DNA of 64,000 nucleotides. Source: Fibrobacter sp. UWB10. GTDB taxonomy: Bacteria > Fibrobacterota > Fibrobacteria > Fibrobacterales > Fibrobacteraceae. The stretch spans positions 496,001 to 560,000 of the forward strand of contig NZ_FXUE01000001.1 in assembly GCF_900182935.1 (NCBI RefSeq). The letters are read 5' to 3'. The notes beneath the pieces were generated by a model. It was not told the DNA's origin and did not search any database. It worked only from the letters and a program-made list of their open reading frames with translations. The number at the start of each line of letters is the position of its first letter. Position 1 is the first letter of the stretch. Shown piece after piece: positions 32,185 to 54,351 of the stretch. A program made the position numbers and the translations under genes.

Positions 32185-32193
32185 GTAAAGCAA

Positions 32194-35501: not shown

Positions 35502-35518
35502 GGTTAGTAATATACATA

Positions 35519-35544
35519 ATAATCATCGCAAAAATGACGATTAT
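35519..35544. promoter_or_regulatory. Putative HipB operator
   Basis: Inverted half-sites ATAATCATC and, on the other strand, ATAATCGTC, separated by eight bases, just upstream of hipB. Position and symmetry fit an autoregulatory operator. Confidence 0.55.
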
Positions 35545-35634
35545 CGTAAAAAAATTAGATAAAACACTTTTTTGTGATAGTTATAACAACTACATACGCA
35601 ATCTTTTACTCATTTCATGACCATCATTACCTCC

Positions 35635-35658
35635 CTGCGAACAAGCGTGAAACCGCAG
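35635..35658. repeat. Conserved-loop hairpin, copy 1 (3' side of RhuM gene)
   Basis: CTGCG-aacaagcgtgaaac-CGCAG. The loop AACAxGCxTGAAA recurs in the hairpin at 36606-36631 on the other side of the RhuM gene, while the stem bases differ. Confidence 0.5.
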
Positions 35659-35701
35659 TGTTTTGAAATTTTGAGCACTAGAACATTTAATTAAATTCGA
35701 G

Positions 35702-36592: not shown

Positions 36593-36605
36593 TTTTCACT
36601 CCTCC

Positions 36606-36631
36606 CCGCAAACAGGCTTGAAATTGCGGGT
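36606..36631. repeat. Conserved-loop hairpin, copy 2 (5' side of RhuM gene)
   Basis: CCCGCAA-acaggcttgaaa-TTGCGGG, 14 bases upstream of the RhuM start codon. Compare 35635-35658: the loop is similar and both stems are preserved with different bases. Confidence 0.5.
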
Positions 36632-36771
36632 CTTCAATCGCTTTTCGCGAGTGCCATCTACTCACTTGTGCACTAAATATAATTTCTCAGGGCATCTTTG
36701 TCAATAGGTGCGCGACAATTTTTTTGAACAGCCCTCCCGGCAGCCCCTTTTAATCTATATTACTCAACAAG

Positions 36772-38001: not shown

Positions 38002-38599
38002 AATTTTTGGACGAAAGCCTAAAAAAGAAGAAACTAAAACGACTTTATATACAAAGGACGTTTTAGGATTCCAATACGCTATTGGAGACTTTACATATGG
38101 GATTCCAACAATTATGCATTGGGGCGAAAAGGCTACATTGAAAATCGGAAAATTTTGTTCCATTGCAAAGGATGTTACCATTTTTTTGGGTGGTAATCAC
38201 AGAACCGATTGGGTCTCAACGTACCCATTCAATGTCTTGAATGAGCTGTTCCCTAATGCACGTGATATTACAGGGCATCCTGGTACGAAAGGCGATGTGA
38301 TTATTGACAATGACGTTTGGATTGGTTGGGGAGCAACAATTCTCTCTGGGGTTACCATTGGAAACGGGGCTGTTGTTGCGGCAAAAGCTGTTGTAACAAA
38401 AGATGTCCCGCCTTATGCGGTTGTTGCAGGAAATCCCGCTCAGATAGTAAAATACCGTTTTTCAACAGAAACAATTAATTCGTTACAAAAAATACAATGG
38501 TGGAATTGGCCTATAGAAAAAATCAATTGCAATGTTAGGAAAATTTGCAATAGAGATATGGACACTTTCATCAAGGAGCATCTCAATGACTCCATTTAA
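37982..38599 (+). CDS. Hexapeptide-repeat acetyltransferase (CatB-like)
   Basis: O- or N-acetyltransferase of the xenobiotic/CatB branch, probably decorating a surface sugar with acetyl-CoA. It is 205 residues from the ATG at 37982, which overlaps the end of wzt by 20 bases. The left-handed beta-helix is visible as hexapeptide turns (ATLKIGKFCSIAKDVTIFLG; VIIDNDVWIGWGATILSGVTIGNGAVVAAKAVVTKDVPPYAVVAGNPAQIV), the last being the family signature. The catalytic His would be in GGNHRTDWVSTYPF. It is AT-rich, part of the imported cassette. Confidence 0.9.
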   Translation: MIGLINKIFGRKPKKEETKTTLYTKDVLGFQYAIGDFTYGIPTIMHWGEKATLKIGKFCSIAKDVTIFLGGNHRTDWVSTYPFNVLNELFPNARDITGHPGTKGDVIIDNDVWIGWGATILSGVTIGNGAVVAAKAVVTKDVPPYAVVAGNPAQIVKYRFSTETINSLQKIQWWNWPIEKINCNVRKICNRDMDTFIKEHLNDSI

Positions 38600-39569
38600 T
38601 TTTGTGAAAAAAGCATTTTCAAATTTCATCTGTAATTTACACACATTGTTCAAATACAACAATGAGCAAGACTGCATTAAGGTAATTCAAACTCAGAATA
38701 AGATTATTTGTAATTTACAAGAAGATATACTTTCCGTAAGAAAAGAAATCGTTGAAATATACTTTGACACACATAAGGATGAAGCTGATCAATATCGCAA
38801 TGAACTTAGGTATTTGAAGAATGTGCATACAATGGTCCCATTCTTATACCCACAAACAAAAAAAATAAATCCACCCGTTTCAGGATACGACGAGAAATAC
38901 AAACTTTCCTTTGTTATTCACAACAACAATCGTTTGTATTTTCCTAAAGGTTGGTCTCCAGAGACAGCTAGTAATGCATATCGTAATTATATTGAACGAG
39001 AGAATTTACTTGGCGGAGGATATACAGAAAAAGCGCCTCATCAATATGTAACAGAATCCTTCCATGTGGAACAAGACGATATTATTGTAGACGCAGGCTG
39101 CGCTGAAGCTCTTTTTGCACTTGATTCTGTTGAAAAAGCCAAACATGTATATTTACTGGAAGCTGATGCTATTTGGCTTAAACCCTTACAGGTAACATTC
39201 GCTCCTTATAAAGACAAAGTTACAATCATTCAAAAATTTTTAAGCGGCGAAAAATCTGAGAACACAGTAACACTTGATAGTCTTTTTGACAAGTTTAGCG
39301 AAGAATCATTCTTTATAAAAATGGATATTGAGGGGGCAGAAGAATCGGTCATTCAAGGAAGCAAGGATTTTCTCACATCTCAAAATAAAATTAAACTTGC
39401 TTGTTGTACATACCATAAAGCTCGCCACGCAGAAACGATATCATCTCTACTAGAAGATATGGACTATCATTTTGAATTTTCGGATGGTTATATGCTATTC
39501 CCTTGGGACAAGCATCAACAGCCTCCATATTTTAGGAAAGGCTTGATTAGGGCTGTTCGCTCTATTTAA
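38586..39569 (+). CDS. FkbM family methyltransferase
   Basis: S-adenosylmethionine-dependent O-methyltransferase, often acting on glycans. It is 327 residues. I chose the ATG at 38586 (MTPFNFVKKAF), preceded by AAGGAG; it overlaps the acetyltransferase stop. The N-terminal 85 residues contain a coiled-coil-like region. The methyltransferase fold begins near IIVDAGCAEALFALDSVEKA (SAM motif, here without the usual glycines at the second and third position), with VYLLEADAIWLKPLQ and FIKMDIEGAEESVIQGSKDF, typical of FkbM. It could cap the chain recognised by the Wzt C-terminal domain (inference). Confidence 0.85.
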   Translation: MTPFNFVKKAFSNFICNLHTLFKYNNEQDCIKVIQTQNKIICNLQEDILSVRKEIVEIYFDTHKDEADQYRNELRYLKNVHTMVPFLYPQTKKINPPVSGYDEKYKLSFVIHNNNRLYFPKGWSPETASNAYRNYIERENLLGGGYTEKAPHQYVTESFHVEQDDIIVDAGCAEALFALDSVEKAKHVYLLEADAIWLKPLQVTFAPYKDKVTIIQKFLSGEKSENTVTLDSLFDKFSEESFFIKMDIEGAEESVIQGSKDFLTSQNKIKLACCTYHKARHAETISSLLEDMDYHFEFSDGYMLFPWDKHQQPPYFRKGLIRAVRSI

Positions 39570-40680
39570 CCAATCTAAAAGGCAGTGTTAAAACTTTTAC
39601 GCAGACGTCACAAAGATCAAAAAGCCAACGTCCTCTTTTTGATCGATATAGGTTATAAAAAAAAACGTATAACCAAGATTGTTCATAACCATTTTCTACA
39701 TCTCCAAATCCGAGTTTTAACAAAAACCTAAATAACCAATAGTTATTATTAAACGACCACAAAAAAAGATTGTCCAATTTGCTCAATTTGAATGGATAGT
39801 TGCAAAACAAATTCATTTTTCTAAACTTGTCAAAATCTTTTTTTGAAGCAAGATTCACGCGATTGACTAAAAAACAAAAACTTTTCTTTAAAATTTTAAC
39901 GCATCTTCTTTCGCTCCCGTTTTGCGGGGCAAAGAAATTCTTTAAACAATCATATTCCAAATCAAAAAGGATTTGCAACTGCTCGACAACATTACTAGAT
40001 GCTTTTAACTTCGAAACAGAACCAGATGAATTAGAGTACAAATAATGATTATAATATACTCCAGAATTAAATACATATTTTTGCTTTACCCGGGACATTA
40101 AAGCTAAGTTAAAGCAAATATCTTCCATTCCATGATTAAAAATAGAATCAAACGTTAAATCAGAAACAATATCTCTTTTATAAAAGTGATTCCAAACATC
40201 GATAAAATTCTCATTTAAACGAACGTCTAAATACTTATAAGGCAAATCTTCAGCTAAAACAGAACCATTTTTTAGTCGTTGCTCTACTACAAGATTATTC
40301 GACTCTGTATAAATTCTATTAATGGAAAATTGCAACACATCCGCCTTCTCTTTTTCTATCAGTTCGTAATTATCGCGTAGTAAATGAGGCAAATATTCAT
40401 CATCATGATCGCAAAAAGTAATGTATTTTCCTTTCGCAATCTTCAATCCGGCGTTTCTCGCAGCCGAAGTCCCTGCATTTTCTTGATGAATTACGTGAAT
40501 TCTAGAATCTTCTTTTGCATATTCATCACAAATAATCCCGCTACTATCTGTGGAACCATCGTCTACAAGAATGAGTTCAAAAGAATCAAAATCTTGAGAA
40601 AGAACACTCTCTATAGCAAAACGGACCCTGTTTTTGGAATTATACACAGGCATTATAATACTTACTGCAACGAACGCCAT
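39562..40680 (-). CDS. Glycosyltransferase family 2
   Basis: GT-A type glycosyltransferase, 372 residues. The start VSIIMPVYNSKNRVRFAIESVLSQ, LILVDDGSTDSSG, NAGTSAARNAGLKIAKGKYITFCDHDDEY (DxD-like metal motif) are all canonical. The C-terminal 150 residues are unusual, rich in Phe, Asn and Lys. It is on the minus strand, overlapping the convergent methyltransferase gene by 8 bases. Sugar and acceptor are unknown. Strongly AT-rich. Confidence 0.9.
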   Translation of the reverse strand: MAFVAVSIIMPVYNSKNRVRFAIESVLSQDFDSFELILVDDGSTDSSGIICDEYAKEDSRIHVIHQENAGTSAARNAGLKIAKGKYITFCDHDDEYLPHLLRDNYELIEKEKADVLQFSINRIYTESNNLVVEQRLKNGSVLAEDLPYKYLDVRLNENFIDVWNHFYKRDIVSDLTFDSIFNHGMEDICFNLALMSRVKQKYVFNSGVYYNHYLYSNSSGSVSKLKASSNVVEQLQILFDLEYDCLKNFFAPQNGSERRCVKILKKSFCFLVNRVNLASKKDFDKFRKMNLFCNYPFKLSKLDNLFLWSFNNNYWLFRFLLKLGFGDVENGYEQSWLYVFFYNLYRSKRGRWLFDLCDVCVKVLTLPFRLVK

Positions 40681-40694
40681 GTTACGATTTCCCT

Positions 40695-41816
40695 TTATTT
40701 TTTTTGAAAAAAGCGATACAAGTCTTTTTTTTCAAAAATGTCTTTTTTTAAACGCGCTACAACATCATTCACCAATTTGCCCTCATCTAATTTTTTGTTT
40801 CTTGTTTTTTTTAAGAAGGGGAAACATTTCTTTTCAAATAAATATTCTCCCTTTACATTGGTTTTATACAAAACATCACCAGACGTCTTAGATTTGATTT
40901 CTGTAAAAACACGTTTAAAATTTATTTTTTCAACAAAAATATCTAATTTCATCTCATTTTCTTCATAAATAAAATTGTACGTCAAATAAACATACTCCCC
41001 TTCACTACCAAAGGATGCCTTTGACGCATCTACAAAATTTAGTACAGATAACCGACTTTTAATTTTTTCCAAAAGAAGATATTCATTTTTATACAATTTT
41101 ATTAAAGTACGTTCGTCAATCCATTTTGCTTCAGGATCTTTGTTTTTTAAAGTATCGCTTTTAATGAGCCTGAATGTTCCATCTCTAAGACAAAGTACCA
41201 ATAAAATAAAACATAATATTACGGACCAAATTAAATGGCAAGGATATTTTAAAATTTGCAACATTACACAATGGTTTGCAAAAGACAAAGACATGGCCCA
41301 TAAAGCTACATAGCCTATTATGATATTAATTCTTGATGGTGAAAAGGCTCCACCTTTAAAACTATGAAGAGATGTGTCAAATTTGTGTTTGCCTTTTTGT
41401 GGATAAAATGGGAGATTGTCGTATTGAAATGCAATATATTTTTTTAAAATGTTGTTTTTTGACATTTCTTTTTCAATTGCGCGAATGGCTGTTTCGTATA
41501 CCTCGACCCATGCTTTAGACGCCTTTGCCAAACAAATCCAAAGACGAGAAAAAGCAACACCCAAAAGAGCTATCAACATAGCAAATATATGGCATTTCCA
41601 GCTTTCTTCATCAAAATAGATTAGCTGGTTATCTTTATCAAAGAAAGCTTTTGAAAAAAAAGCACCATATCCCGTAAAGCAAAGAATTAGAAACGCCCCC
41701 AAGAAAACCGATCGTTGCCAAAGATTTTTTATTTCAAAGTCTCGACAGCGCCAATACTGTTCATACAAATCCCTTAAAACAAGTCTATCTGCAGGCCTTC
41801 CATCATTATCTTTCAT
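40695..41816 (-). CDS. Membrane protein, possibly RipA-like
   Basis: It is 373 residues with four hydrophobic segments (about 35-58, 75-95, 170-190, 200-220) and a long charged C-terminal half. The N-terminus RDLYEQYWRCRDFEIKNLWQRSVFLGAFLILCFTGYG recalls the RipA family of bacterial membrane proteins (from memory, not verified). The C-terminal half contains repeated VYLTYNFIYEENEMKL and KSKTSGDVLYKT stretches of unknown fold. It is encoded with glycosyltransferases on both sides but has no glycan enzyme motif. Function unknown. Confidence 0.65.
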   Translation of the reverse strand: MKDNDGRPADRLVLRDLYEQYWRCRDFEIKNLWQRSVFLGAFLILCFTGYGAFFSKAFFDKDNQLIYFDEESWKCHIFAMLIALLGVAFSRLWICLAKASKAWVEVYETAIRAIEKEMSKNNILKKYIAFQYDNLPFYPQKGKHKFDTSLHSFKGGAFSPSRINIIIGYVALWAMSLSFANHCVMLQILKYPCHLIWSVILCFILLVLCLRDGTFRLIKSDTLKNKDPEAKWIDERTLIKLYKNEYLLLEKIKSRLSVLNFVDASKASFGSEGEYVYLTYNFIYEENEMKLDIFVEKINFKRVFTEIKSKTSGDVLYKTNVKGEYLFEKKCFPFLKKTRNKKLDEGKLVNDVVARLKKDIFEKKDLYRFFQKK

Positions 41817-41823
41817 ACAACCC

Positions 41824-42792
41824 CTATTTGCTCAACCAATGTAAAGAAATAAATTGAACAAGTTTTTCTAGAAAGTAAAAAGTTCCTTTTTCTTTTCTAC
41901 ATCTATACAAATCAGCTATAAATCCAAACAAAGCCGTATCACGAAATTCTTTTTCCGAGTTTCCATATACGCCCAAGGTTCTTTCAAATGCCGTCAACGG
42001 TTTGCTTATTATTTTTAGAATGGATTCATTCAACCCATTTTCTTTTATTTCATTCCAGAAATCTTTTTTTTGAAATAAGTATGGCGATTCAAAGTAATCG
42101 CTCTGCCATCCCGTAAAAAAATGGATTATTTTGGCATCAAAAAAATATTCCCAAGACCGGCTTATCTGCACATTATACGTATCCGGTAAAAGAGCAAAAG
42201 CATCGCCAATCTGTTTTATAGCACAATTCAACGAAGGCATATCAATGAAATACCCGCTTGTAGAAGTCTCCAACCATTTTTTATGCCATAAATCAAAGAA
42301 GGTTCTTGATACCTCTGAATCCCTTGAGAAAAGAACTCCTCCATTTACATATTTTTCGACGCCAGGATTACAGTTCACCTTCTTGAATTCTTCTTCTATT
42401 CCCTTTTTTAAGGGATGTTCTGTCAACAAGCAGTGCCCGTCCAAGACACCCATTACGTCTTGCGTAAAATCGGCAACATCAACAGGTGCATTCCACACCG
42501 TATCTGCATCAACATATAAGAAGTCCCCTTCGACATATTTTCTCATAGAGGTTTTTATGTAGCGTGACCTTGCTATAGCAGGGACACTTTCCTCCACAGG
42601 AACAACGATATACTCATTTACATATTTTTTTATTCGCTCTAATTCCGAGATAAAGCCCTTATCAGTCAAGCAGTCGACTAACAATGTAACAAAGGCATCT
42701 GGCCGAACATTTTTTAATGAAGCCATAGACACCAATGTTTGCTCGCAATAAAACCCATTTTTCGAGCCAACTAGGACATATAAATACTTCAT
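41824..42792 (-). CDS. Glycosyltransferase, GT8/nucleotide-diphospho-sugar transferase-like
   Basis: It is 322 residues. The N-terminal fold YLYVLVGSKNGFYCEQTLVSMASLKN is followed by a metal-binding FLYVDADTVWNAP (DxD, about 89-101) and KYVNGGVLFSRDSEV, the pattern of GT8-like transferases. Later WEYFFDAKIIHFFTG fits the C-terminal His of this fold. It is encoded 7 bases before the membrane protein gene on the same strand, so the two are probably cotranscribed. The substrate is unknown. Confidence 0.82.
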   Translation of the reverse strand: MKYLYVLVGSKNGFYCEQTLVSMASLKNVRPDAFVTLLVDCLTDKGFISELERIKKYVNEYIVVPVEESVPAIARSRYIKTSMRKYVEGDFLYVDADTVWNAPVDVADFTQDVMGVLDGHCLLTEHPLKKGIEEEFKKVNCNPGVEKYVNGGVLFSRDSEVSRTFFDLWHKKWLETSTSGYFIDMPSLNCAIKQIGDAFALLPDTYNVQISRSWEYFFDAKIIHFFTGWQSDYFESPYLFQKKDFWNEIKENGLNESILKIISKPLTAFERTLGVYGNSEKEFRDTALFGFIADLYRCRKEKGTFYFLEKLVQFISLHWLSK

Positions 42793-42835
42793 TTTTCCTC
42801 AACACATTGTATATTTATAAATAATAATAATTATT

Positions 42836-43870
42836 ATGATTAAAGTTTCCGTCATTGTCCCCGTTTACAAAGTCCCGTTGGAATACCTTCGAGCCTGTTT
42901 AGACTCCTTGACAGCCCAAACAATGCAGGAATGCGAATTCATCTTGGTTTCAGACGGAGCTCCAGAAGCAGAATGTTCTGTTTGCGAAGAATTCTCCGCC
43001 AAGGATTCCCGATTCAAGTTTTTCAGGCGAGAACATTCCGGCGTTTCTGCAACGAGAAATTATGGCATAGAGTATGCACAAGGAGAGTTCCTAACCTTTG
43101 TTGACAGCGATGATTGGATAGCCAAAGATTCATGCGATATTGCCTACAACTATGCAAAACGCAACAACAGTGACATTGTCCTATGGGAGGCCGCACAGGA
43201 CCTTAATGGTTGTCAAAAATATGGTTTTTTTTCAAGCACCCCCATAAACATCTTATCTGAAAAACAAATAGATTCTATTATCAGCAATATTATTTATACT
43301 ACAGCAAAAAAATACTATAGTGCATCTTTAGTATGCTGTAAACTTTTCAAAAAAAATCTCATTATCCAGAATAACATTCGCTATCCAGAATCACTGATAA
43401 TGAGTGAAGACAGAATATTTAACATATCTGCCTACAAACATTCAAAAAAAATATCCTATCTAAATAGCATAATGTATTTTTATAGAATCCATAATCAATC
43501 TGCATCACACAGATACATACCACATGCATTTGAACAATATAGCGCGTTCATCAAACTATTAGACAAAGACACAAGAAAAAAAAACATCAACGCAATTAAC
43601 AATGAAATAGTAAGATCGTTTTTTTTAAGTTGGCAAACATATTACTTGCACAATGAAAACAAAGCATCATTTAAAAGTAAAGTCAATGAAATAAAAGATG
43701 TTATAAAAACATATTTTTTTCAACAGGCTTTGAAAAAAAAATTCCACGAATTTCCTCAAATAATTCAAATCGAAATTTTTTGTTTCAAGCACAATATTTT
43801 TTTCCCAATATACATTCATAGTTTAAAAGCCTTATTAAAGAAGCATATCATCCGAGATCAATCAACATGA
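42836..43870 (+). CDS. Glycosyltransferase family 2
   Basis: It is 344 residues with canonical GT2 blocks: VSVIVPVYKVPLEYLRACLDSLTAQTM, FILVSDGAPE, EHSGVSATRNYGIEYAQGEFLTFVDSDDWI (SDD metal motif). The first 130 codons are less AT-rich than the remainder, where runs of A and T dominate. It overlaps the next gene by 4 bases (ATGA), so the two are coupled. It is divergent from the GT8-like gene, with only 43 bases between start codons. Confidence 0.9.
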   Translation: MIKVSVIVPVYKVPLEYLRACLDSLTAQTMQECEFILVSDGAPEAECSVCEEFSAKDSRFKFFRREHSGVSATRNYGIEYAQGEFLTFVDSDDWIAKDSCDIAYNYAKRNNSDIVLWEAAQDLNGCQKYGFFSSTPINILSEKQIDSIISNIIYTTAKKYYSASLVCCKLFKKNLIIQNNIRYPESLIMSEDRIFNISAYKHSKKISYLNSIMYFYRIHNQSASHRYIPHAFEQYSAFIKLLDKDTRKKNINAINNEIVRSFFLSWQTYYLHNENKASFKSKVNEIKDVIKTYFFQQALKKKFHEFPQIIQIEIFCFKHNIFFPIYIHSLKALLKKHIIRDQST

Positions 43871-44829
43871 TTACCTTCCGTTTGCAAAACCTAATAATCG
43901 CAATGAAACAACATTCTTGGCAAGCAATTATTGGGCGTTCAAAAGAAATCTTAAAAGGGATTTTGTACAAGTCTCACTCACTTCCAAACTTAACCGTGGA
44001 AGGAAATGATAAGCAGCAAATTCATCAAATATCAATTGTTGCTATTGTAAAAAATGAAGCATTATACATTCGTGAATGGATAGAATATCATCTAATCATC
44101 GGCGTAGAACACTTTTACATTTACGACAACGAATCCAGCGATGACCTTCGATCTATATTGGACTCTTACATAAAAAAAGGAATTGTTTCATACATTTTTT
44201 GTCCAGGAACAACAATGCAAATGCCCGCATATAACGACGCATCCGTCCGATTTAAAAAAAATAATCGCTGGATCGGATTTATCGACATTGATGAATTTGT
44301 CGTCATAAACCCCAAATACTATAGAAATTTAAAAGAAGTATTGACACATTTCGAACCATACGACATGCTTGGCATAAATTGGTGTATGTATGATTGTAAT
44401 GGGAAAAAAAATAAACCAACAAGTGGATACGTGATTTCTAACTATACCCGTAGATTCGACAACGACAACAATCCTTTAAACAGGCATTTAAAATGTTTTG
44501 TCAAACCCAATGCAATTAAAGTAATTTTAACACCACACTACATGCATCTATTTCGAGGGAAAAAAGCAGTTAATGAAAACGAAGAAAAATTAATCACTCC
44601 GTTTCCTCCCCAAAACTCATTAAATAAAATTAGAATTAATCACTATTTTTCCAAAAGTGAAGAGGAATATGTAAAAAAAATTTCTCGGGGACGTTCTGAC
44701 ATAGCTCAGAAAAGATCATTCAATCGCAATGCTTTTGACTTTTCTTACGAAAAAACAAAAGAAAATGATATCGATATGCAAAAATACATAGACATTCTAA
44801 AAAACAGAATCCCCGACACTTATAGGTAA
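43867..44829 (+). CDS. Glycosyltransferase family 92 (DUF23) protein
   Basis: It is 320 residues. Signature blocks of GT92: VAIVKNEALYIREWIEYHLIIGVEHFYIYDNESSD, the metal motif WIGFIDIDEFVV (DxD), and the C-terminal INHYFSKSEEEYVKKISRGRSD. This family adds galactose or related sugars to glycans. Start overlaps the upstream GT2 stop. Four bases separate it from the next GT2 gene. Confidence 0.9.
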   Translation: MITFRLQNLIIAMKQHSWQAIIGRSKEILKGILYKSHSLPNLTVEGNDKQQIHQISIVAIVKNEALYIREWIEYHLIIGVEHFYIYDNESSDDLRSILDSYIKKGIVSYIFCPGTTMQMPAYNDASVRFKKNNRWIGFIDIDEFVVINPKYYRNLKEVLTHFEPYDMLGINWCMYDCNGKKNKPTSGYVISNYTRRFDNDNNPLNRHLKCFVKPNAIKVILTPHYMHLFRGKKAVNENEEKLITPFPPQNSLNKIRINHYFSKSEEEYVKKISRGRSDIAQKRSFNRNAFDFSYEKTKENDIDMQKYIDILKNRIPDTYR

Positions 44830-44833
44830 ACAA

Positions 44834-45778
44834 ATGATGATTTCCATAGCAATGACATCGTATAACGGGGAAAAATTTATTTCTGAACAGATATCATCAA
44901 TTCTTTCACAAACGATTGAAGATTTCGAGTTAATCATATGTGACGATTGTTCCACAGATCACACATTGTCAATCCTTAAAGAATACAAAGAAAAAGATTC
45001 TCGCATCAAAATTGTACAAAATAAAAAACAATTGGGATTTCTAAAAAATTTTGAACAAGCCATATCCCTGTGCACAGGAGATTATATCGCCTGCTGTGAT
45101 CAAGACGACATCTGGACAAATAATCATCTAGAATACTTGCTGAACAATATAGGAAAAAACGATTGCATTGGAGCAAACGGCATTATTATCGACAAACTTG
45201 GAAAAAAAATCGGATCAACCGTAAAGGAATCACTTTCTGTAGAATATGAGCCAAGCAATTCGGACTCCTTATTCAAGCACGAGTGTTTCTACAACCTTAT
45301 TCAAGGAACAGCATGTCTTTTTAAAAAGACATTGCTTTCGTCAATTTTACCATTTCCAGATGGCATTAAATTTCACGATCATTGGATTGCTCTAAACGCC
45401 GCCATGCAAAATGGATGTAAATACACATCAGACATAATCCTCCTTTATAGGACACACAGCCAAAACGTGACAGGGTTCAGAAAATTCAATTTAGTTCACT
45501 CTTTAAAAACGGCCTTTCAAGCAAATAAATATCGGCATCATATATACAGACATAACATCGCCATGCTTACATTCATAAAGCGCAAAAACACCTACAATGA
45601 TGTTTATATAAATAATGCTTTAGCATTCTTCGAGAATCTTTCTTCCGACAAGCATAGAACGCAATCTGTCCTATTTTACATAAAAAACTATAACGAAATT
45701 GCCCTTTGTCCCCGAAAAAAATGGAAACTATTTCTATATCGAGTTTTTTGTCTTTCTCTTTTTGGAATCATGCTTTAA
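44834..45778 (+). CDS. Glycosyltransferase family 2
   Basis: It is 314 residues. ISIAMTSYNGEKFISEQISSILSQTI, LIICDDCSTDHT, KQLGFLKNFEQAISLCTGDYIACCDQDDIW (QDD motif) mark a rhamnosyl- or similar GT2 transferase. The gene ends at 45778 and overlaps the convergent GT2 gene's 3' end by 45 bases. That is a long antisense overlap, and suggests the two gene groups were joined by recombination. Confidence 0.9.
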   Translation: MMISIAMTSYNGEKFISEQISSILSQTIEDFELIICDDCSTDHTLSILKEYKEKDSRIKIVQNKKQLGFLKNFEQAISLCTGDYIACCDQDDIWTNNHLEYLLNNIGKNDCIGANGIIIDKLGKKIGSTVKESLSVEYEPSNSDSLFKHECFYNLIQGTACLFKKTLLSSILPFPDGIKFHDHWIALNAAMQNGCKYTSDIILLYRTHSQNVTGFRKFNLVHSLKTAFQANKYRHHIYRHNIAMLTFIKRKNTYNDVYINNALAFFENLSSDKHRTQSVLFYIKNYNEIALCPRKKWKLFLYRVFCLSLFGIML

Positions 45779-46633
45779 ACGACAAAATAAATCATACAAC
45801 CAAAATTCAAATTTTGTATATGCAAACCACAACTTAGCGAACGCCATCTGTAACGCACTCGCTTTTTTATATCTTTTCAAAAACAATTCTGCACTCTTCA
45901 ATAGTATTGCATGTTGTTGCGACCATCGGCGATACGTCTTAGATATAGAAACATGGTGATTATGAATATAAGCGCAATCTAAGCGTAAAACTGTCTTAAG
46001 ACCAGCTTCATCAAATTTCTGTCCCAAAACAGGTTCCTCATAATAAAGAAAGAATTCCTCATCGTACATGCCATACTTTAGCATTTTTTTCAAATCAACC
46101 ATCAACATTGAACCAGGAACAGCAAATACAGGAACAAAATCTTTACCCTTAAAATATTTCTTTGGATAGAAACGGATCTTTAGCCACACTTCAAAAAATA
46201 AGCTCGTTGCTAGTATGTATTGCAAGGTGGAACAATTTTTCCAAGCGCAATCAGGCGAATTAGACTGTCTAGCCGAGACTACAGCAACCGAAGAATCTTC
46301 CTGCAAAGTCTGCAAAAAGTTTTCCACACAATCTTCATCAAATTGCACATCTGGATTCGCGATAATTGAATAATCTGCATTTAAAATGTCAGAAGAATAT
46401 CGTAATCCAAAGTTGTTTCCAGCACCATACCCACCATTCCTAGGCGTTTGAATCACATGTACTTTGTCGTTCTTATAATTTTGCAACTGTTCCCAGGAAT
46501 CATCTGTCGAGCAATTATCTACAATCACGATATAATCCAGTAGGGCATAATCTTTTATACTTTCCACTAGACCTATTGTCGTGGGAGCATCATTGTAATT
46601 AAGAATCACACAGGACAATATTCTATTAGCCAT
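45734..46633 (-). CDS. Glycosyltransferase family 2 (rhamnosyltransferase-like)
   Basis: It is 299 residues with SCVILNYNDAPTTIGLVESI, IVIVDNCSTDDSWEQL, RNGGYGAGNNFGLRYS and the metal motif SIIANPDVQFDED, typical of the WcaA/rhamnosyl branch of GT2. The C-terminal FFLYYEEPVLGQKFDEAGLKTV is also characteristic. It overlaps the upstream GT4 gene by 8 bases (coupled). Confidence 0.9.
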   Translation of the reverse strand: MANRILSCVILNYNDAPTTIGLVESIKDYALLDYIVIVDNCSTDDSWEQLQNYKNDKVHVIQTPRNGGYGAGNNFGLRYSSDILNADYSIIANPDVQFDEDCVENFLQTLQEDSSVAVVSARQSNSPDCAWKNCSTLQYILATSLFFEVWLKIRFYPKKYFKGKDFVPVFAVPGSMLMVDLKKMLKYGMYDEEFFLYYEEPVLGQKFDEAGLKTVLRLDCAYIHNHHVSISKTYRRWSQQHAILLKSAELFLKRYKKASALQMAFAKLWFAYTKFEFWLYDLFCRLKHDSKKRKTKNSI

Positions 46634-47708
46634 TGATGCATTCCTTATACATTTTACTTAAATGGCTGTAAGTATTGTTAATATTATATTGTGGCAAAAG
46701 TACCGAATTCGGCCTTTTTCCTACACAAAATGCTCGTTCTAGAGAATTTTTCCAAGAATCGGAATTAAATCCTTTTATCAGTACACATTGTTCAGACAAA
46801 ACCACTTCCCGAGTCACATTTTCACTCACTATACACGGCAATCCTGCATATTGAGCTTCAACAAGTGTAAGCGGCAAGCCCTCCCACAGAGACGGGAAAG
46901 CAAATACATCCATCACACTATAGAACGGAGCAGGATCTTTTTGCAGACCAGCAAAGATTACGAAGTTTGACAAGCCAAGCGATTTAACTTTTTGTTCAAT
47001 CCGTTCCTGCAACGGGCCATCGCCCAGCAATAGCAGTTTCGCGTTTGCCATCTGTTTATGGAGATCCGCGAACATATCTATCAAAAACTCATGATTTTTC
47101 TGCGGATAGAATCTTCCCACATGCCCTATCACAAAATCGTTCTCTGCAATTCCATATTTCGCACGAATCTCTCGGCGAGCAGCTTCGTTAAACTTAAATC
47201 GTTCCGGGTCGATTGCGTTGGGGAGAATCGTCACCTTACCTTTCTTTACAGCGTTATGCCCCCAGGCATTGATGGCGGCGGCTTCGCCGCAAGCCAACCA
47301 ATGGGTAGCAAAGAGTTTGCAGGGAACGCGCATTATAGCACAAAGGATGTTATTTCCATATGACTGGTGATGATGGGCAAATCTTTTTTTGACTCCAGCG
47401 AGCATAGCCAAAAAGCACACGTAGCTGTTCATGAACCAGTCCAAATGACCATGCACAACATCGTAATGCCCCTTTCTAAAGATTCGGAACATATTCCATA
47501 TGTGTTTCAGTGGATGATGAACCTTATCGGGAATCTGGATGCAGTTGATTCCAGCCTCATTAAAGCGTTCTAATATTTGTGGGTTTGGTTCGTACTGGTA
47601 CAGCAAATCAAAATGAATGTCACGCATACGAGAACAATAATTCAGAACAACCTGCTCCGAACCGCCGCCTACAATCCCATGCAGCACCTGACAAACGCGA
47701 ACACTCAT
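46626..47708 (-). CDS. Glycosyltransferase family 4
   Basis: GT-B retaining glycosyltransferase, 360 residues. The N-terminal VCQVLHGIVGGGSEQVVLNYC is the acceptor-side glycine loop. The C-terminal domain shows FVIGHVGRFYPQKNHEFLIDMF, LLLGDGPLQERIEQKV and the nucleotide-sugar motif FAFPSLWEGLPLTLVEAQYAGLPCI (E-x7-E). It is divergent from the membrane protein at 47735 with only 26 bases between start codons, so the two promoters must overlap the coding regions or each other. Confidence 0.93.
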   Translation of the reverse strand: MSVRVCQVLHGIVGGGSEQVVLNYCSRMRDIHFDLLYQYEPNPQILERFNEAGINCIQIPDKVHHPLKHIWNMFRIFRKGHYDVVHGHLDWFMNSYVCFLAMLAGVKKRFAHHHQSYGNNILCAIMRVPCKLFATHWLACGEAAAINAWGHNAVKKGKVTILPNAIDPERFKFNEAARREIRAKYGIAENDFVIGHVGRFYPQKNHEFLIDMFADLHKQMANAKLLLLGDGPLQERIEQKVKSLGLSNFVIFAGLQKDPAPFYSVMDVFAFPSLWEGLPLTLVEAQYAGLPCIVSENVTREVVLSEQCVLIKGFNSDSWKNSLERAFCVGKRPNSVLLPQYNINNTYSHLSKMYKECING

Positions 47709-47734: not shown

Positions 47735-49414
47735 ATGCTTTTTAAACGAGCTCTAGCATATTCAGTCGTTATCAACCTATTCTTTTTAGGTTTGTGCCTC
47801 ATTTTTGGCGATCTCAAATTCGGGGCGATTGACGACTACTTTATTGCAGCCCGACTCACTGGCGCCCTGGGTACAGAATACAATCCCCACCTAATTTTCG
47901 TAAATGCCATCTACGGCTACGCTCTCTTGCCTCTTTACCACCTTTTCCCAAAAATTGGATGGTACTATATTGGAGAAATATTCTCTGTTTTTCTCTCTTT
48001 CACTGTAATCGGCTATGTATTATTGCAACGGTGCGGAGAACGCTGGGGAGTTATTCTTGCAACCCTGTTTACAGCGCTTTTTGCAAGCGATTTTTACCTA
48101 GTTGTACAATTCACACAATGTGCATCTATTTTGAGTGCAGCGGGAATGTTACTATTCGCACATGGGGTGATAACGCAACCAAGGCACAAACTTCCGTTTA
48201 TTTTAGGTGTAATCCTAATGCTATGGGGTTCCGTTATGCGCTGGCAGGCGTTCCTGATGGGGATGCCATTCTTCTGCTTGGGGATGTTGTTCATCCTAAA
48301 AGAATGTTGGAAAGCCAAATGGCATGTAATTGTAGGTCTTGGAGTTCTTTTCACAGGCGCATTCGCAGCGCACCATTTTGACCAGCAAATTTACCATTCC
48401 TCAGTTTATGCAGATTTCGTCAAATTTCAAAGTCCACGTGTAGCCTTAGGAGACAACGGAAATTACAACCAAAATGCTGTTTACGAAGACGCTGAAGAGT
48501 TAGGACTATCAGGTAAAGATTACCAAATGCTCAAAAAATGGGTTCTATACGACACCGAGGTATTTGCTGTAGACAGTCTCAAGCGCTATACCGACATTAT
48601 CCAATCATACCGCGATCCAAATCCGACACAACTTGTACCCCGTAATTTGCTAAAAGCTTTAAGCAAATCTATTCATTCGCCACTTTTTTGGACATGGTTT
48701 ATTCTGTGCTTGATTACATATTCAACCAATCCAAAGAAATTCCTATACCTATGGGCATCTCTCATCCTAACACTCGCGTTCATAGCATATTTGCTAGCCA
48801 TGGGCAGGCTCGTATATCGCGTCGAAAGCGGATTCTGGCTATATGCCGCAGTTCTCACCATCCCACTATATGGCAAACTCAAATTTACTATTTCGCACAA
48901 GCTAGTTTATGCGATTCTCGCCATCATTGCATGCGCCAACATATATGCATACGCAACCTCTGGCGAAATGGTGCGAGATCCAAGTAGCGGCAGCATGCGC
49001 ACTCTAGCAATCGAAGACACGACCGATTATGTTCAAGTTTTCAACTATATTGACAGCCAACCCGATAAAATGTTCCTACTTTCGATGAACGCGTTTATGC
49101 GATTCAGCCATCATCGGAACCCGCCTTATTTGGCGGAGTCTAGCGGAATCTATAGAAATACAGTTTCTTTTGGTTACTGGACTCCTTACTTACCAGAAGT
49201 AAAAGAAGCCTTAAACAGTTACGGAATCAGCAATCCCATTAAAGATATTGTTCACGACAATGTTATCGTTTTAAACGAGTCAAATCTCGCCGACTTTTTG
49301 CAACGGCATTATTACGACAGCGTCACTGTAGACACGCTCAAACAAATCGGAGAAATGACTTTCTATAAATACAGGCTTGTCAATGTCAACAATACACAGG
49401 AGAACAAACAATGA
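47735..49414 (+). CDS. Large membrane protein, possible GT-C-type glycosyltransferase
   Basis: No family recognised with confidence. It is 559 residues with about ten to eleven membrane segments in the first 400 residues and a soluble C-terminal part (about 420-559). The early loop FGAIDDYFIAARLTGALGTEYNP carries paired acidic residues after the first membrane segment, as in GT-C transferases that use polyprenyl-linked sugars, and the fold pattern fits (inference). It overlaps the next gene by 4 bases (coupled). Confidence 0.7.
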   Translation: MLFKRALAYSVVINLFFLGLCLIFGDLKFGAIDDYFIAARLTGALGTEYNPHLIFVNAIYGYALLPLYHLFPKIGWYYIGEIFSVFLSFTVIGYVLLQRCGERWGVILATLFTALFASDFYLVVQFTQCASILSAAGMLLFAHGVITQPRHKLPFILGVILMLWGSVMRWQAFLMGMPFFCLGMLFILKECWKAKWHVIVGLGVLFTGAFAAHHFDQQIYHSSVYADFVKFQSPRVALGDNGNYNQNAVYEDAEELGLSGKDYQMLKKWVLYDTEVFAVDSLKRYTDIIQSYRDPNPTQLVPRNLLKALSKSIHSPLFWTWFILCLITYSTNPKKFLYLWASLILTLAFIAYLLAMGRLVYRVESGFWLYAAVLTIPLYGKLKFTISHKLVYAILAIIACANIYAYATSGEMVRDPSSGSMRTLAIEDTTDYVQVFNYIDSQPDKMFLLSMNAFMRFSHHRNPPYLAESSGIYRNTVSFGYWTPYLPEVKEALNSYGISNPIKDIVHDNVIVLNESNLADFLQRHYYDSVTVDTLKQIGEMTFYKYRLVNVNNTQENKQ

Positions 49415-50619
49415 AAAGACTCCTGTACCCACTGATAGCAAGCGCCCTCATAACAATTGTGCCTTTCTTGCTCACTTTCGAGAAGGGCCAAGACATTGTC
49501 CGAGGACTCTTTGGCTATGAGTATTTCGCATTATTACTATTTATCATTTTAGTCAAAAACAAAGTATCCAAAAATTTTTTGAGGATTATTTTACTCATCC
49601 TACTAACCGGAACTCTGTTCATTATTTCTTGGATAGACTTACATAATTTATTGGCAATAAAAGAATGGAATACCAGCTGGTATGGGATTATCCCATTCAT
49701 CACCACGGGTCTTTCCTTAGCAATAGTAAGTCCACTCAAACCATTCAAATTCAATACCATCTGCTTTATTCTATTCGTCGCCCTAATATTGCATCTAGAA
49801 ACATACAACCGTTATGCGGCACAACCCCTAGCACAATTTCCGACTATAGACTACCTTGAACGAATTGCACCTAAGCCTGTTCAGCGTAATGATGTTACCG
49901 AAGAATTCCGCAAGAAATACACTGTCACAGACTCTGTCACCATCACACGAGATTTTGTAGATACGACACGAAACAATGTAATCATTCTTGTGGAAAGCTG
50001 GGGCGTACCATTAGACATTCAACGTTTTGAAAAGCAATTAGTGGTTTTCAAAGGAATCACGAATACGACTGGCATACACAATCGCATGTACAGCCGAACT
50101 CGCACCGCCGAACGCGAAGACTTGATCAAAGCAATCACTCGCGATTCAATCACCAAGCAAAAGGATACATTATTTTTACCCAATGTATTTAACGATCTAG
50201 GTTATCAAACCGCATTTCTATTCGGCGGCGATAGCCTAGAACATTACCGATTTAAATACATAAAAAACATCGGCTTTAATGAAGACATTTACGGCAACGG
50301 TTTAAATGACCAAACAATGATTTCAAAGATTAACAGCATTATTGCAGACTCAACGCAAAAGCACTTTGTTGCTTGGACAACTGCAGACACAAAATTTCCA
50401 ATAACAGAATTTCAGGACATATATAATAGCAACGTAGATTCAATCTATTCCGTCTACACCGTTAAGTTACAAAACACACTTGCACAAATTGCGGAACTCG
50501 CACACAAGTACCCTACAACACGATTCATTATCCAAGGTGATCACAACCCCATCCTCTCCCCAATAGAATTTCAGAAAAAATTCTACAAGCGCTGGGTACC
50601 CTATATTATATTAAACTAA
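49411..50619 (+). CDS. Membrane protein with alkaline-phosphatase/sulfatase-like domain
   Basis: It is 402 residues. Four to five membrane segments lie in the first 135 residues; a periplasmic domain follows from about 185, NNVIILVESWGVPLDIQRFE, resembling the metal-site strand of LtaS/OpgB-type phosphoglycerol and phosphoethanolamine transferases. FIIQGDHNPILSP near the end supplies the usual Asp-His metal pair. A candidate nucleophile Thr lies in RMYSRTRTAERED. Shorter than typical members, so perhaps a reduced variant. It is coupled to the upstream membrane protein and is last gene of the AT-rich glycan block. Confidence 0.68.
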   Translation: MKRLLYPLIASALITIVPFLLTFEKGQDIVRGLFGYEYFALLLFIILVKNKVSKNFLRIILLILLTGTLFIISWIDLHNLLAIKEWNTSWYGIIPFITTGLSLAIVSPLKPFKFNTICFILFVALILHLETYNRYAAQPLAQFPTIDYLERIAPKPVQRNDVTEEFRKKYTVTDSVTITRDFVDTTRNNVIILVESWGVPLDIQRFEKQLVVFKGITNTTGIHNRMYSRTRTAEREDLIKAITRDSITKQKDTLFLPNVFNDLGYQTAFLFGGDSLEHYRFKYIKNIGFNEDIYGNGLNDQTMISKINSIIADSTQKHFVAWTTADTKFPITEFQDIYNSNVDSIYSVYTVKLQNTLAQIAELAHKYPTTRFIIQGDHNPILSPIEFQKKFYKRWVPYIILN

Positions 50620-50706: not shown

Positions 50707-51549
50707 ATGCTATTCTTTAACACTGCACTCAAATATCTTAACCTTGAAAAATACAAGGAAAATCTTGCCCCCACAACTATACGTACCTATTACTGGAATC
50801 TAAAAAAAATCACAGATTTCAATCCAGAAATTCACTGCGAAGATATTGACGAATCTTTTATTCGTAATTATAAATCATTCTTACAACAAAAGGGCGATAA
50901 ACCGAATACCGTTGCCAAGGCATTATCCGTATTCAGAATTTTTACTAGAAAAATGCTCATTGACAAGCTATTAAAAACAGACCCTTTCGAGAACATCAAA
51001 ATTGGACGAGTTTACTCAAAACGGAGTTTCCTTACAACTAACGAACTTAAGCATCTGTATCTAAATTATCTAGACAACAAGCATTCTCTCACAGAAACAG
51101 AACAGAATGTTATGAATGTATTCCTATTCAGTTGCTTTACCGGCCTACGATACAGCGACCTTCTTTCACTCGACGCATCGGAAATTTTCGATTGGAAAAT
51201 CCGCAAACAAACCCACAAAACAGGAGAACCCGTATATATTCCTATCCCCATCCAAGCACGATTGCTCTTGCCCGAGAAATTATCACAAGGTCGAATTTTT
51301 AAAGTGGTAGAAAATTCACATTTTAACAGAACTCTTCGCAGAGTCGCCCCAAAACTAGGTTATCACAAATACATCCATTGCCACTTGGCTAGACACACTT
51401 TTGCAACAACCTGCATTTCACTCGGAATATCTTTACCATCGACCAGCAAATTACTAGGCCATCGCAATGTCGAAACAACTCTTATTTATGCAAAATTCGT
51501 TGACACATTTCTTGACAAAGAAATGAAAAAATTCAATAAATTGCGATAA
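50707..51549 (+). CDS. Tyrosine recombinase (XerC/D-like integrase)
   Basis: Site-specific recombinase, 280 residues. An N-terminal SAM-like core-binding domain spans about 1-95 (LAPTTIRTYYWNLKKI). The catalytic domain shows all key residues: Arg148 in FTGLRYSD, probable Lys171, His226-x-x-Arg229 in HLARHTFATT, His252 in LLGHRNVETT and the nucleophile Tyr261 in TLIYAKF. The gene looks intact. It ends 36 bases before the 21-bp inverted repeat at the start of the silent pilin cassette and points toward it. The most economical idea is that it inverts the pilin segment; it could instead be a remnant of an integrated element. Confidence 0.92.
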   Translation: MLFFNTALKYLNLEKYKENLAPTTIRTYYWNLKKITDFNPEIHCEDIDESFIRNYKSFLQQKGDKPNTVAKALSVFRIFTRKMLIDKLLKTDPFENIKIGRVYSKRSFLTTNELKHLYLNYLDNKHSLTETEQNVMNVFLFSCFTGLRYSDLLSLDASEIFDWKIRKQTHKTGEPVYIPIPIQARLLLPEKLSQGRIFKVVENSHFNRTLRRVAPKLGYHKYIHCHLARHTFATTCISLGISLPSTSKLLGHRNVETTLIYAKFVDTFLDKEMKKFNKLR

Positions 51550-51577: not shown

Positions 51578-51954
51578 CAGGAAACTACGTGAAGTTGCAG
51601 CAGGCTTATATTTCTGAAGCTGTTGCTATTGGATCTTGGGCCGTTATTGGTTATAAGGGTCCTGGTGACAATACGAATGCTACTGGTGCTACCGGTGGTG
51701 CAACGTCTAAAACAAATAATTTCAGCTACAAAGACGCAACTGGATATACCAACAACACCGCTGCTTTGGACGCCACTGGAAAGACTGGTTTTACAGCCCA
51801 CAACGAAGCTAAGTTGAACGATTGCGTACAGGGTGACCACTGGACCATTACGGTTAAAGCCGGATCTGCTGCTGGTGAAGCAACTTTCACTCCGAGCACG
51901 CTTTCTCAGGACTGCTTGCAGCTCACTCCGAACTTCGCTCAGATTGGCAAGTAA
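51578..51954 (+). pseudogene. Silent 3' pilin cassette (leaderless)
   Basis: About 120 codons homologous to residues 46-174 of the complete pilin at 53827-54351, lacking the prepilin leader, the N-terminal helix and any ribosome site. Homology starts at GCAGGAAACTACGTGAAG and continues to the stop. Shared blocks are YVKLQQAYISEAVA, IGYKGPGDNT, AKLNDC and C-x-LTPNF-x-x-IGK; the two conserved cysteines frame a variable region. An upstream in-frame stop (51569) prevents read-in; the only start would be the GTG at 51589. Most differences within the shared first block are silent, so the copy is under protein-level selection rather than decaying. It has its own terminator. Confidence 0.85.
51585..51605 (+). 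repeat. 21-bp inverted repeat, left copy (candidate recombination site)
   Basis: CTACGTGAAGTTGCAGCAGG plus one further C, identical to the reverse complement of 54191-54211. It lies at the left edge of the cassette homology and codes YVKLQQA in the pilin frame. Confidence 0.9.
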
Positions 51955-51975: not shown

Positions 51976-52003
51976 AAAAGGGACTCCATTCGGAGTCCCT
52001 TTT
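51976..52003. terminator. Bidirectional terminator of pilin cassette and phosphotransferase-like gene
   Basis: AAAAGGGACTCC-attc-GGAGTCCCTTTT, a perfect 12-bp stem with T runs on both strands, 22 bases after the cassette stop and 40 bases after the stop of the convergent gene at 52043. Confidence 0.92.
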
Positions 52004-52042: not shown

Positions 52043-53722
52043 CTATTCTTCCTTATTCTGTTTTTTTATTAGTAAGTAACTTTCGTACATTAAGTGATTA
52101 GACATTTTTCTTATTTCTTTGTTGAGAGAGTCCAACCCGATGCATTCTATAAGCGTTTTTTTGCCGCCAAAAAGGTCCGTTCCAAACCCAAGCCGCTCTC
52201 CATCGATATTGAAATTGATTGAACTGAGAATGGTTGGGAACATATCAATGTCTGAATAAAGCCGATTTTCGTTAGAAACAGGAACCTTTGAAGGATTTAT
52301 AAAAAAGTTGACCCATTTTCTGTCTGTGGCGCCCTTAACTAAACGATTCCCAGGAAAAAGATGATCTCCAAAAACAACGATGGATGTGTTGCCATAGAAT
52401 GCTTTTGTTCTTAATGTATCCAGAAATTTGTTTAATTCCCTGGATACGCACCGTGCAGATGCTTTTAGTCTTTCGTCTTCGTTTTTCTCGTCGTTGATTT
52501 TTATGCAATCAGGGTCGTATAGTCCACTTGGAGCGTGGGTATCTATGGTGAAAAATGTCAGCGAAAAAGGTTCTGAGATGGTGTCGAGAATTTGATGGGC
52601 AAAAATAAAGGTTTCTTTGTCTTGAACAGTCTTGTATCCTTGTTTTCTTATAAGATCTGCGGTATCCAAATCCAATCTTTGTATCAAATCATCCGGACCA
52701 TAAATTTCGTCTATTTTTTGATCTATTGCGAATTGTCGGAATTGTTTGTAAAGACCCGAATTTCCTTGAAAGAAAATTTGTTTGTAATCGTACTCGTTTA
52801 AAATTTTATAAATGCTCTTATAATGATGCAGTATAGGAGTCTTTGAATAAATAGTAATATTAGGAATTCCTAAAGATCTGCTATGCATGGAGGGGAATGT
52901 GGATGTCGAACCTATGGCGTCTAGTCCGCCGCCAATATTTTTTTTGTTTTTTCCGAAACTCAGATTTTGCAAGGCGAGTTCTGTAATTTCTGGAATAAGA
53001 TTGGTATCTTGATTGCCCCCATGAATTCTGTCTGCGAAAGATGTTTCTAGCGATTCCAAGTATATGAGAATCAAGTTCCGCTTATGCTGGGGAGGTGTGA
53101 TTATGACAGAATCCGGATTGACATAATTTTCGACAAAGAATTTTGAATATGCCGTATTTTTTTCGGGCTCGTTATTTAAAATATGTATGTAGTCGGATAT
53201 GGGAATGTTATAGAAAACAGGAATGATTGCTGCAATGATATATATTCCTACAGGAACCAGTCTTTTTTTTGTGTTATTTAAAACGACGTAAAGGAAAATT
53301 GCAATAACAATTGTTATTACAAGTGCTTGGGGAATAGTGGTTGTCAGATATTGTCGAACCATTGAATAAGCGAAGTCGTCAAAGGGTTCTTGCAGTGTAA
53401 GCAACACCGTATTCGCGTCTTTAAGTGGAAATGTGCTTAAGGCCCAAACAAAGCCTGTCCTAAAAAGGACTGCCAAAAAGAGAGGCGCGATAACGAGTGG
53501 TATGTGTGAAGGTTTGAAATAATCCTTCTTTTGAAAATGCTTTGTGCGCCAATTTAAAATAATCAGCGCCAAGAAGGACAGTATATATTCCGGAGACGCG
53601 AAAAAGGGAGATATTTCTAAAAAATAGTGTTCAATTATAAAGATAAGACATATGGCAATCGCCGCAATTTTCAAAAAAAACAGAATTGGTCTTGAAATGC
53701 TATGCATATTTGAGAATTTCAT
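52043..53722 (-). CDS. Membrane-anchored sulfatase/phosphoglycerol-transferase-like protein
   Basis: It is 559 residues. Five membrane segments lie in the first 190 residues, then a periplasmic alkaline-phosphatase-superfamily domain: NLILIYLESLETSFADR (metal-binding Glu), a candidate nucleophile Thr/Ser in AIGSTSTFPSMHSRS, FSLTFFTIDTHAPSGLYDPD and VVFGDHLFPGNRL (Asp-His metal site). This is the build of LtaS/OpgB and phosphoethanolamine transferases, which move phospholipid head groups to surface polymers or proteins. It lies wholly inside the 2.6-kb segment bounded by the 21-bp inverted repeats, downstream of the pilin. A pilin-modifying role is a tempting inference. Confidence 0.85.
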   Translation of the reverse strand: MKFSNMHSISRPILFFLKIAAIAICLIFIIEHYFLEISPFFASPEYILSFLALIILNWRTKHFQKKDYFKPSHIPLVIAPLFLAVLFRTGFVWALSTFPLKDANTVLLTLQEPFDDFAYSMVRQYLTTTIPQALVITIVIAIFLYVVLNNTKKRLVPVGIYIIAAIIPVFYNIPISDYIHILNNEPEKNTAYSKFFVENYVNPDSVIITPPQHKRNLILIYLESLETSFADRIHGGNQDTNLIPEITELALQNLSFGKNKKNIGGGLDAIGSTSTFPSMHSRSLGIPNITIYSKTPILHHYKSIYKILNEYDYKQIFFQGNSGLYKQFRQFAIDQKIDEIYGPDDLIQRLDLDTADLIRKQGYKTVQDKETFIFAHQILDTISEPFSLTFFTIDTHAPSGLYDPDCIKINDEKNEDERLKASARCVSRELNKFLDTLRTKAFYGNTSIVVFGDHLFPGNRLVKGATDRKWVNFFINPSKVPVSNENRLYSDIDMFPTILSSINFNIDGERLGFGTDLFGGKKTLIECIGLDSLNKEIRKMSNHLMYESYLLIKKQNKEE

Positions 53723-53767
53723 GATATAGGATAATATAGATTTTATGCGTGATTCAGTGGATGATGC

Positions 53768-53805
53768 AAAAAAAAAGAGCCGCCCCTTTTGGGATGGCTC
53801 TTTTT
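53768..53805 (-). terminator. Terminator of the type IV pilin gene
   Basis: Minus-strand AAAAAGAGCCATCCC-aaaa-GGGGCGGCTCTTTTTTTTT stem (one G-U/mismatch) with a long T run, just past the pilin stop. Confidence 0.9.
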
Positions 53806-53826: not shown

Positions 53827-54351
53827 TTACTTACCGATCTTGTCGAAGTTCGGGGTAAGTTCCGTGCAATTGGTTGTAGCTGTGAAAGTAGCATCACCTT
53901 CGGAAGAAGTAGACTTCTTAACGGTAACTTTCCAGTTAAAGTTAGAAGAAGATGCATCACCACTCTTAGCTGCGCAATCGTTCAGCTTGGCCTGATTTGC
54001 AACAACGAAACCCACGACTTCATCAGTGCCTAAAGTTGTCGTATTATTCGTGTAAGTGGCACCATCCGCATATTTGAAGTTTGTTGTTCCAGACTTGTCA
54101 CCGCCAGTTGCAGTGCCCTTGGTGTTGTCGCCCGGGCCCTTGTAGCCGATAATCTGCCAGTTACCAACAGCGACTGCTTCAGAAATGTAGGCCTGCTGCA
54201 ACTTCACGTAGGTACCGGCGGCAGGGCCGACTTCGGAAGCCTTGGACTTAGCGATCATGCCGAACAGTTTCGGTACTGCGACGGCGGCCAAGATGCCCAT
54301 GATCACGATCACGACCATCAATTCGATAAGGGTAAAACCTTGCTTTTTCAT
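53827..54351 (-). CDS. Type IV pilin (major pilin candidate)
   Basis: It is 174 residues. A short prepilin leader MKKQG is followed by FTLIELMVVIVIMGILAAVAVPKLFG: cleavage between Gly5 and Phe6, Glu at mature position 5, one long hydrophobic helix. The globular part shares blocks with the silent cassette and has a conserved Cys pair (LNDC ... NCTELTPNF) likely to form the D-region disulfide. AAGGAG lies six bases before the ATG. The 21-bp inverted repeat (54191-54211) codes residues 48-54, the hinge between helix and head. The gene appears strongly expressed (good ribosome site, strong terminator). Confidence 0.92.
   Translation of the reverse strand: MKKQGFTLIELMVVIVIMGILAAVAVPKLFGMIAKSKASEVGPAAGTYVKLQQAYISEAVAVGNWQIIGYKGPGDNTKGTATGGDKSGTTNFKYADGATYTNNTTTLGTDEVVGFVVANQAKLNDCAAKSGDASSSNFNWKVTVKKSTSSEGDATFTATTNCTELTPNFDKIGK
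54191..54211 (-). repeat. 21-bp inverted repeat, right copy (inside the pilin gene)
   Basis: Reads CTACGTGAAGTTGCAGCAGG plus C on the minus strand, identical to 51585-51605 and in the same codon phase. Recombination between the two copies inverts 2,627 bp. Confidence 0.9.

Follow-up and report, generated by a model that had tools for sequence, protein, structure and literature searches.

In a gut bacterium of the Fibrobacter type, two inverted copies of a 21-bp sequence enclose a single gene, which encodes an LtaS/OpgB-type membrane transferase and lies directly behind the type IV pilin-like gene that contains one of these copies (Table 1; the window refers to the whole stretch of DNA analyzed, 64,000 nucleotides in length). 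We tentatively conclude that this arrangement represents a pilin-accessory cassette carried on a site-specific DNA switch, with an enzyme whose action would be linked to the pilin and whose expression would be switched along with it. Inversion of pilin genes and pilin-linked modifying enzymes are known from different bacteria and are apparently joined in this locus, so that both could change in one flip. The flip may alter the decoration of the pilus or that of adjacent surface sugars. Pilin proteins of Fibrobacter have been proposed to help hold cellulose fibres (parts of PMC3079729 and PMC4668043). If a broader and more tentative form of our reading is true, then pilus sequence and pilus chemistry would constitute one heritable switch unit across the Fibrobacteraceae.

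Table 1. Positions of the pilin-transferase segment and associated features in the window.
Feature	Position	Strand	Basis or remark
Membrane protein P559, outside the segment	47735..49414	+	559 aa; family with GT-C glycosyltransferase-like predicted fold
P402, outside the segment	49411..50619	+	402 aa; relative of PF00884 membrane-protein family
Tyrosine recombinase, presumed invertase	50707..51549	+	280 aa; PF00589, XerC/D-like
Inferred invertible segment	51585..54211		Between two inverted site copies
Recombination site copy 1	51585..51605	+	21-bp exact core; start of silent cassette
Silent pilin cassette	51586..51954	+	Variable part only; without promoter, signal or N-terminus
Terminator hairpin	51976..52003	+	3' of silent cassette
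LtaS/OpgB-type membrane transferase	52043..53722	-	559 aa; PF00884, predicted fold; E223, T275, H396, D453 and H454 presumptively catalytic
Terminator/attenuator hairpin with T tract	53773..53804	-	Between pilin and transferase; dG -19.0 kcal/mol
Expressed type IV pilin-like protein	53827..54351	-	174 aa; N_methyl PF07963
Recombination site copy 2	54191..54211	-	Within expressed pilin gene, about codon 47

The transferase reading frame is intact (559 codons), and PF00884 is the sole Pfam family found in its product (E 4.4e-15). The best NCBIfam match is to phosphoglycerol transferase I/OpgB (5.9e-22), but the protein scores 78 bits against the cut-off of 572 for the OpgB equivalog NF009027 and is thus not classed as OpgB itself. 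It also matches LtaS structures in sequence (2.9e-8), and an AlphaFold2 model (pLDDT 86.8) aligns best with VP1736, LtaS and LtaP (Z 27.4-28.6), as compared to EptC (Z 22.8) and other phosphoethanolamine transferases (Z 20.5). Hydropathy and the model together indicate that about five transmembrane helices precede an extracytoplasmic PF00884 catalytic domain. Residues E223, T275, H396, D453 and H454 do not vary across the full set of 29 aligned sequences, nor do cysteines C406 and C425. The metal and nucleophile roles of the five former residues are presumed from those of LtaS, with T275 only a putative nucleophile because pairwise alignments to LtaS are ambiguous near the threonine. A dead enzyme was ruled out, as the presumptive active-site residues are intact, and a plain LPS phosphoethanolamine transferase was set aside as less likely, as both fold and sequence point toward LtaS/OpgB. 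The LtaS/OpgB/phosphoethanolamine-transferase build that had been claimed from a sequence-only reading of this DNA holds, with the predicted fold nearer to the LtaS/OpgB side than to the phosphoethanolamine side. A phosphoglycerol modification (+154 Da) would be the better fit to the predicted fold, with phosphoethanolamine (+123 Da) less likely.

Members of the family to which this transferase belongs (here called SULF) tend to be located near pilins. Among 51 matches of at least 83 bits, obtained after dropping the second fragment of one broken gene, 28 have a pilin or pilin cassette at a distance of 8 kb or less and 19 have one at 3 kb or less. In contrast, among 20 loci of a 700-aa paralogue with the same fold, chosen from the matches listed, none has one at 8 kb or less (Fisher p = 4e-6). 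Given the shared ancestry of the genomes and a glycan cluster that adjoins the pilin locus, this result constitutes linkage but does not prove function. In a phylogeny of 86 proteins with the SULF fold, the label for proximity to a pilin (12 rows) requires 5 changes, at least 4 of which are forced by well-supported branches. The window transferase belongs to a clade of eight in which only one other member is near a pilin (G041, where a gene fragment separates it from the preceding pilin cassette). Of the remaining members, three adjoin a Wzt-type O-antigen exporter gene, two (G060 and G034) are in or beside glycan or glycosyltransferase clusters and one (G110) is with neither a Wzt/glycan cluster nor a pilin cassette. 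The sequence-only reading had named homologs that are always linked to LPS genes as evidence against its proposal. This pattern is half present, as five of the seven other clade members are by Wzt or glycan genes and the closest orthologues (60-69%) are mostly within O-antigen/glycan clusters, but the G041 member is by a pilin cassette and more distant SULF subfamilies sit directly behind pilins in several genomes.

These glycan-associated relatives favor the strongest alternative, which is that the transferase was recruited from the neighboring O-antigen-like cluster and decorates that surface glycan instead of the pilin, possibly while still switching with the pilin. The window itself contains a glycan cluster upstream (28800-47700) that includes the ABC exporter genes Wzm (32194-33054) and Wzt (36772-38001) as well as GT2/GT4 genes, and the proximity of the transferase to a pilin may therefore partly mirror this neighborhood. 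Additionally, the transferase is akin in fold to GacH, which its structure title names as a phosphoglycerol transferase and which has a surface polysaccharide as its substrate. A glycan target alone would nevertheless leave unexplained the occurrence of several SULF subfamilies, and of the GT-C-like family, right behind pilins with a similar hairpin, and we consider it unlikely, while still the most serious of the alternatives.

Several other features of the neighborhood were observed. A HipA gene (33862-35199) is present within the glycan cluster, and the P559/P402 pair (47735-50619) lies beside the recombinase, with related pairs found near many family pilins and sometimes directly behind them. 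P402 has no direct Pfam match; a member of its family in G055 matches PF00884. The same-species genome G094 exhibits 93% identity to the window up to position 54178, just past site copy 2, beyond which synteny is lost until ~37 kb save for scattered matches; ~36.7-54.2 kb is largely replaced. Neither a recombinase of the window family (at E 1e-20) nor a close SULF orthologue was found in G094.

The position directly behind the pilin is occupied by comparable enzymes in many Fibrobacteraceae. Our survey covered the best pilin place of each genome for which it had been fetched, in all 67 places in 66 genomes out of 101 with a pilin match, including two long ORFs that are maybe not pilins and one partial cassette at a contig edge. 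At 21 of the 67 places the pilin is immediately followed on its own strand by a gene for a SULF (8), a GT-C-like P559 (8) or a P402 family member (5), as compared to 3 of 67 that have such a gene in the opposite direction. Enrichment directly after the pilin relative to nearby glycosyltransferases was not significant (21/116 vs 2/21, p = 0.53). Among 22 co-directional pilin-enzyme pairs in the fetched loci, 18 contain a hairpin with a T tract, and in 12 the two genes are separated by no more than 67 nt, which leaves little room for a further promoter; the pairs in G088 and G062 have an identical hairpin, and the 22 are thus not all independent. For example, G084 contains a pilin, a co-directional transferase from another SULF subfamily, an opposite silent cassette and a recombinase. 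Window-like layouts also occur in G056, with a GT-C-like protein and a P402-family protein as the transferases, and with a P402-family protein in G061, where the recombinase is farther off beyond more genes, and in G055, where no recombinase is present within the fetched stretch. Similar genes run in the same direction as the silent cassette in G040 and come after silent cassettes in G035 and G041, as would be expected of the OFF state.

Not every such interval contains an enzyme, which is relevant to a second alternative in which the transferase is passive cargo, either a spacer or a hitchhiker between cassettes that is transcribed from its own promoter with no tie to the state of the pilin. 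Among 18 tail-to-tail intervals that include a full pilin, 9 are free of cargo ORFs and 3 contain cargo of other types (PDDEXK_2, HipA, DUF3990 and Mrr-like); a hand count gives transferases in 6 of these 18 and in 2 of 14 head-to-head intervals. A rule that transferases are tail-to-tail only and toxin-antitoxin genes head-to-head only was considered and is not clean. Comparable intervals that are empty, or that hold AbiEi/AbiEii, HipA, DUF3990, DUF4143-AAA or PDDEXK_2, are what passive cargo would predict, as is absence of the enzyme beside the closest pilin allele (G020, 80%), which has no SULF-family gene and just a distant paralogue. On the pilin tree, none of the three alleles closest to that of the window has such an enzyme directly behind it, which weakens a strict pairing of the window allele with its transferase. 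Enzyme labels do cluster on the pilin tree (15 changes vs a shuffled mean of 19.2, with 0 of 200 shuffles as low), a pattern that relatedness alone can explain. Against passive cargo, 5 of the 6 tail-to-tail intervals that hold a transferase have it on the same strand as the full pilin, the slot behind the pilin is biased 21 to 3 toward the same strand and many of the pilin-enzyme gaps are too short for a promoter. On balance passive cargo appears quite improbable, though more probable than gene conversion as discussed below.

Within the window, the transferase starts 104 nt after the pilin stop codon on the same strand. The intervening hairpin was found by separate folding and is absent from the list produced by the promoter scan. 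That scan was uninformative, as promoter-like sites were no more common than in shuffled sequences (14 vs 15.6). The transferase could have its own, possibly weak, promoter in the AT-rich stretch of ~40 nt before its ATG, which would also accommodate passive cargo. Linked expression of pilin and transferase, which had earlier been suggested with a "perhaps", is plausible given this short distance, the attenuator-like hairpin and the recurrence of the architecture in relatives.

The segment itself has the anatomy of a site-specific switch. The full and partial pilins share the exact 21-bp core in inverted orientation, and the recombinase, in which we find the R-K-HxxR-H-Y residues that we take to be the motif of such enzymes, ends ~35 nt 5' of the site at the silent cassette. 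A simulated flip at the core gives an in-frame pilin of 169 aa instead of 174 aa and moves the transferase to the plus strand (52074-53753), downstream of the recombinase and the newly silent cassette. The earlier claims that the transferase is the sole gene inside the segment, that it flips with the pilin and that it then follows the recombinase are thus borne out, the latter two in computed geometry. At 58 places in fetched loci with a recombinase-family gene, the window among them, similarity of silent cassettes to full pilins begins at or within a few bases of one point, with the sequence upstream of the site unrelated between them. This constant boundary indicates that the site is more than conserved coding sequence, and the 58 sites in relatives and the window rule out a chance inverted repeat. 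Two or more site copies are present at 26 Fibrobacteraceae loci in 25 genomes, with 17 of the 26 having three to nine sites and the window locus having two. A scan of genome contigs yielded one relative. Our literature search did not find pilin inversion in Fibrobacter, an absence that proves little as subscription journals were mostly outside its coverage. A third alternative, in which RecA-type gene conversion would draw on the silent cassette as it does on the pilS cassettes of Neisseria, accords with that cassette's lack of a promoter and N-terminus and with homology that extends past the 21-bp core, but is highly improbable given the same-family recombinase adjacent in many such loci, the short shared core with unrelated upstream sequence and the inverted and multi-cassette arrangements.

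Additional observations were made at recombinase and pilin loci. At L066 (G102), L071 (G053), L072 (G097), L073 (G098), L061 (G020), L060 (G076) and L172 (G028), the pilin sites number four to nine in a shufflon-like array, and between the cassettes are toxin-antitoxin- or defence-like genes (AbiEi/AbiEii, HipA-like, DUF3990 and DUF4143-AAA). Close recombinase homologues (49-72% identity) are present with no pilin cassette in the fetched stretch at L057-L059, L062, L074, L078 and L081-L085. Proteins of 678-730 aa with no convincing Pfam match are found near pilins at L106 (8509-12652), L076 (9196-11313), L060 (2385-4577) and L154 (12637-14715).

For the linked switch that we favor, anatomy and relatives suggest that the tyrosine recombinase would invert the segment at the sites within the pilin gene. 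In the current orientation pilin variant A would be expressed from a promoter and N-terminus located outside of the segment, and transcription that passes the pilin terminator may provide low-level expression of the transferase. After inversion variant B would be expressed, and the transferase would be reversed, with the recombinase and the silenced cassette A in front of it, a computed geometry in which it would presumably be off or expressed at the level of the recombinase. The transferase most likely takes a head group of the phosphoglycerol type from a membrane lipid, as putative donor, and passes it to the pilin or a pilin glycan, as putative acceptor. With expression and head-group transfer coupled to orientation in this manner, one flip would alter pilus sequence and decoration together. 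The idea of a linked switch of pilin and modification, first raised by the sequence-only reading, gains from the layout and flip geometry and loses from the closest orthologues being mostly in O-antigen/glycan clusters. Its foundation in anatomy is good, as a Pseudomonas-like accessory layout is situated on an invertible segment. More tentative still is the broader proposal that one inversion swaps the variable part of the pilin and toggles a dedicated modifier, either LtaS/OpgB-type or GT-C-like, which would be exchangeable between genomes while the unit remains heritable across the Fibrobacteraceae.

The closest known counterpart in layout is the pilin-accessory cassettes of P. aeruginosa (pilA with tfpO, tfpW or tfpX/Y/Z), in which a membrane gene is directly 3' of the pilin behind a rho-independent terminator that is thought to attenuate its expression (part of PMC11841053). 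The same source describes, in part, glycosylation of the pilin by TfpO and TfpW and evasion of pilus phages by Pseudomonas as a result of pilin glycosylation (PMC11841053). As in these cassettes, the window transferase is on the same strand directly behind the pilin with a terminator between them, and one of the alternative enzymes in Fibrobacteraceae has a GT-C-like predicted fold. Unlike P. aeruginosa, the window accessory enzyme is of the PF00884 LtaS/OpgB type, is on an inferred invertible segment and is a putative pilin modifier.

Inversion in Moraxella is catalyzed by Piv, an IS110/DEDD-type recombinase, whereas the window recombinase is of the tyrosine type (PF00589). The Moraxella invertible segment contains a further gene, tfpB, for which our literature search found no report of this location. 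The window resembles Moraxella in having inverted repeats in a pilin and a partial pilin that are in-frame after a computed inversion, and differs in that Fibrobacteraceae relatives hold up to nine sites. In Moraxella bovis, the C-terminal portion of the pilin is exchanged by means of inverted repeats, which enables a strain to express two pilins (in part of PMC9585708). The R64 shufflon (Rci, pilV) places several C-terminal cassettes behind one constant N-terminus (in part of PMC11852207). Fibrobacter and R64 both pair a tyrosine recombinase with cassettes for the C-terminus of a type IV pilus protein, but Rci targets the plasmid tip adhesin PilV while the Fibrobacter target is a small chromosomal pilin, transferases or toxin-antitoxin-like genes lie between Fibrobacteraceae cassettes and the window has two sites where an R64-type shufflon has three or more cassettes.

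In Neisseria, PptA and PptB add phosphocholine or phosphoglycerol to pilin and PptA phase-varies (part of PMC3656113). However, pptA varies by means of an internal G tract and not by an inversion shared with the pilin, and the predicted fold of the window transferase is nearer to LtaS/OpgB than to EptA/EptC. Pilin inversion, C-terminal shufflons, pilin-linked accessory enzymes and phase-variable phospho-forms of pilin are thus each known separately, while the apparent combination of pilin inversion with an accessory enzyme would be new.
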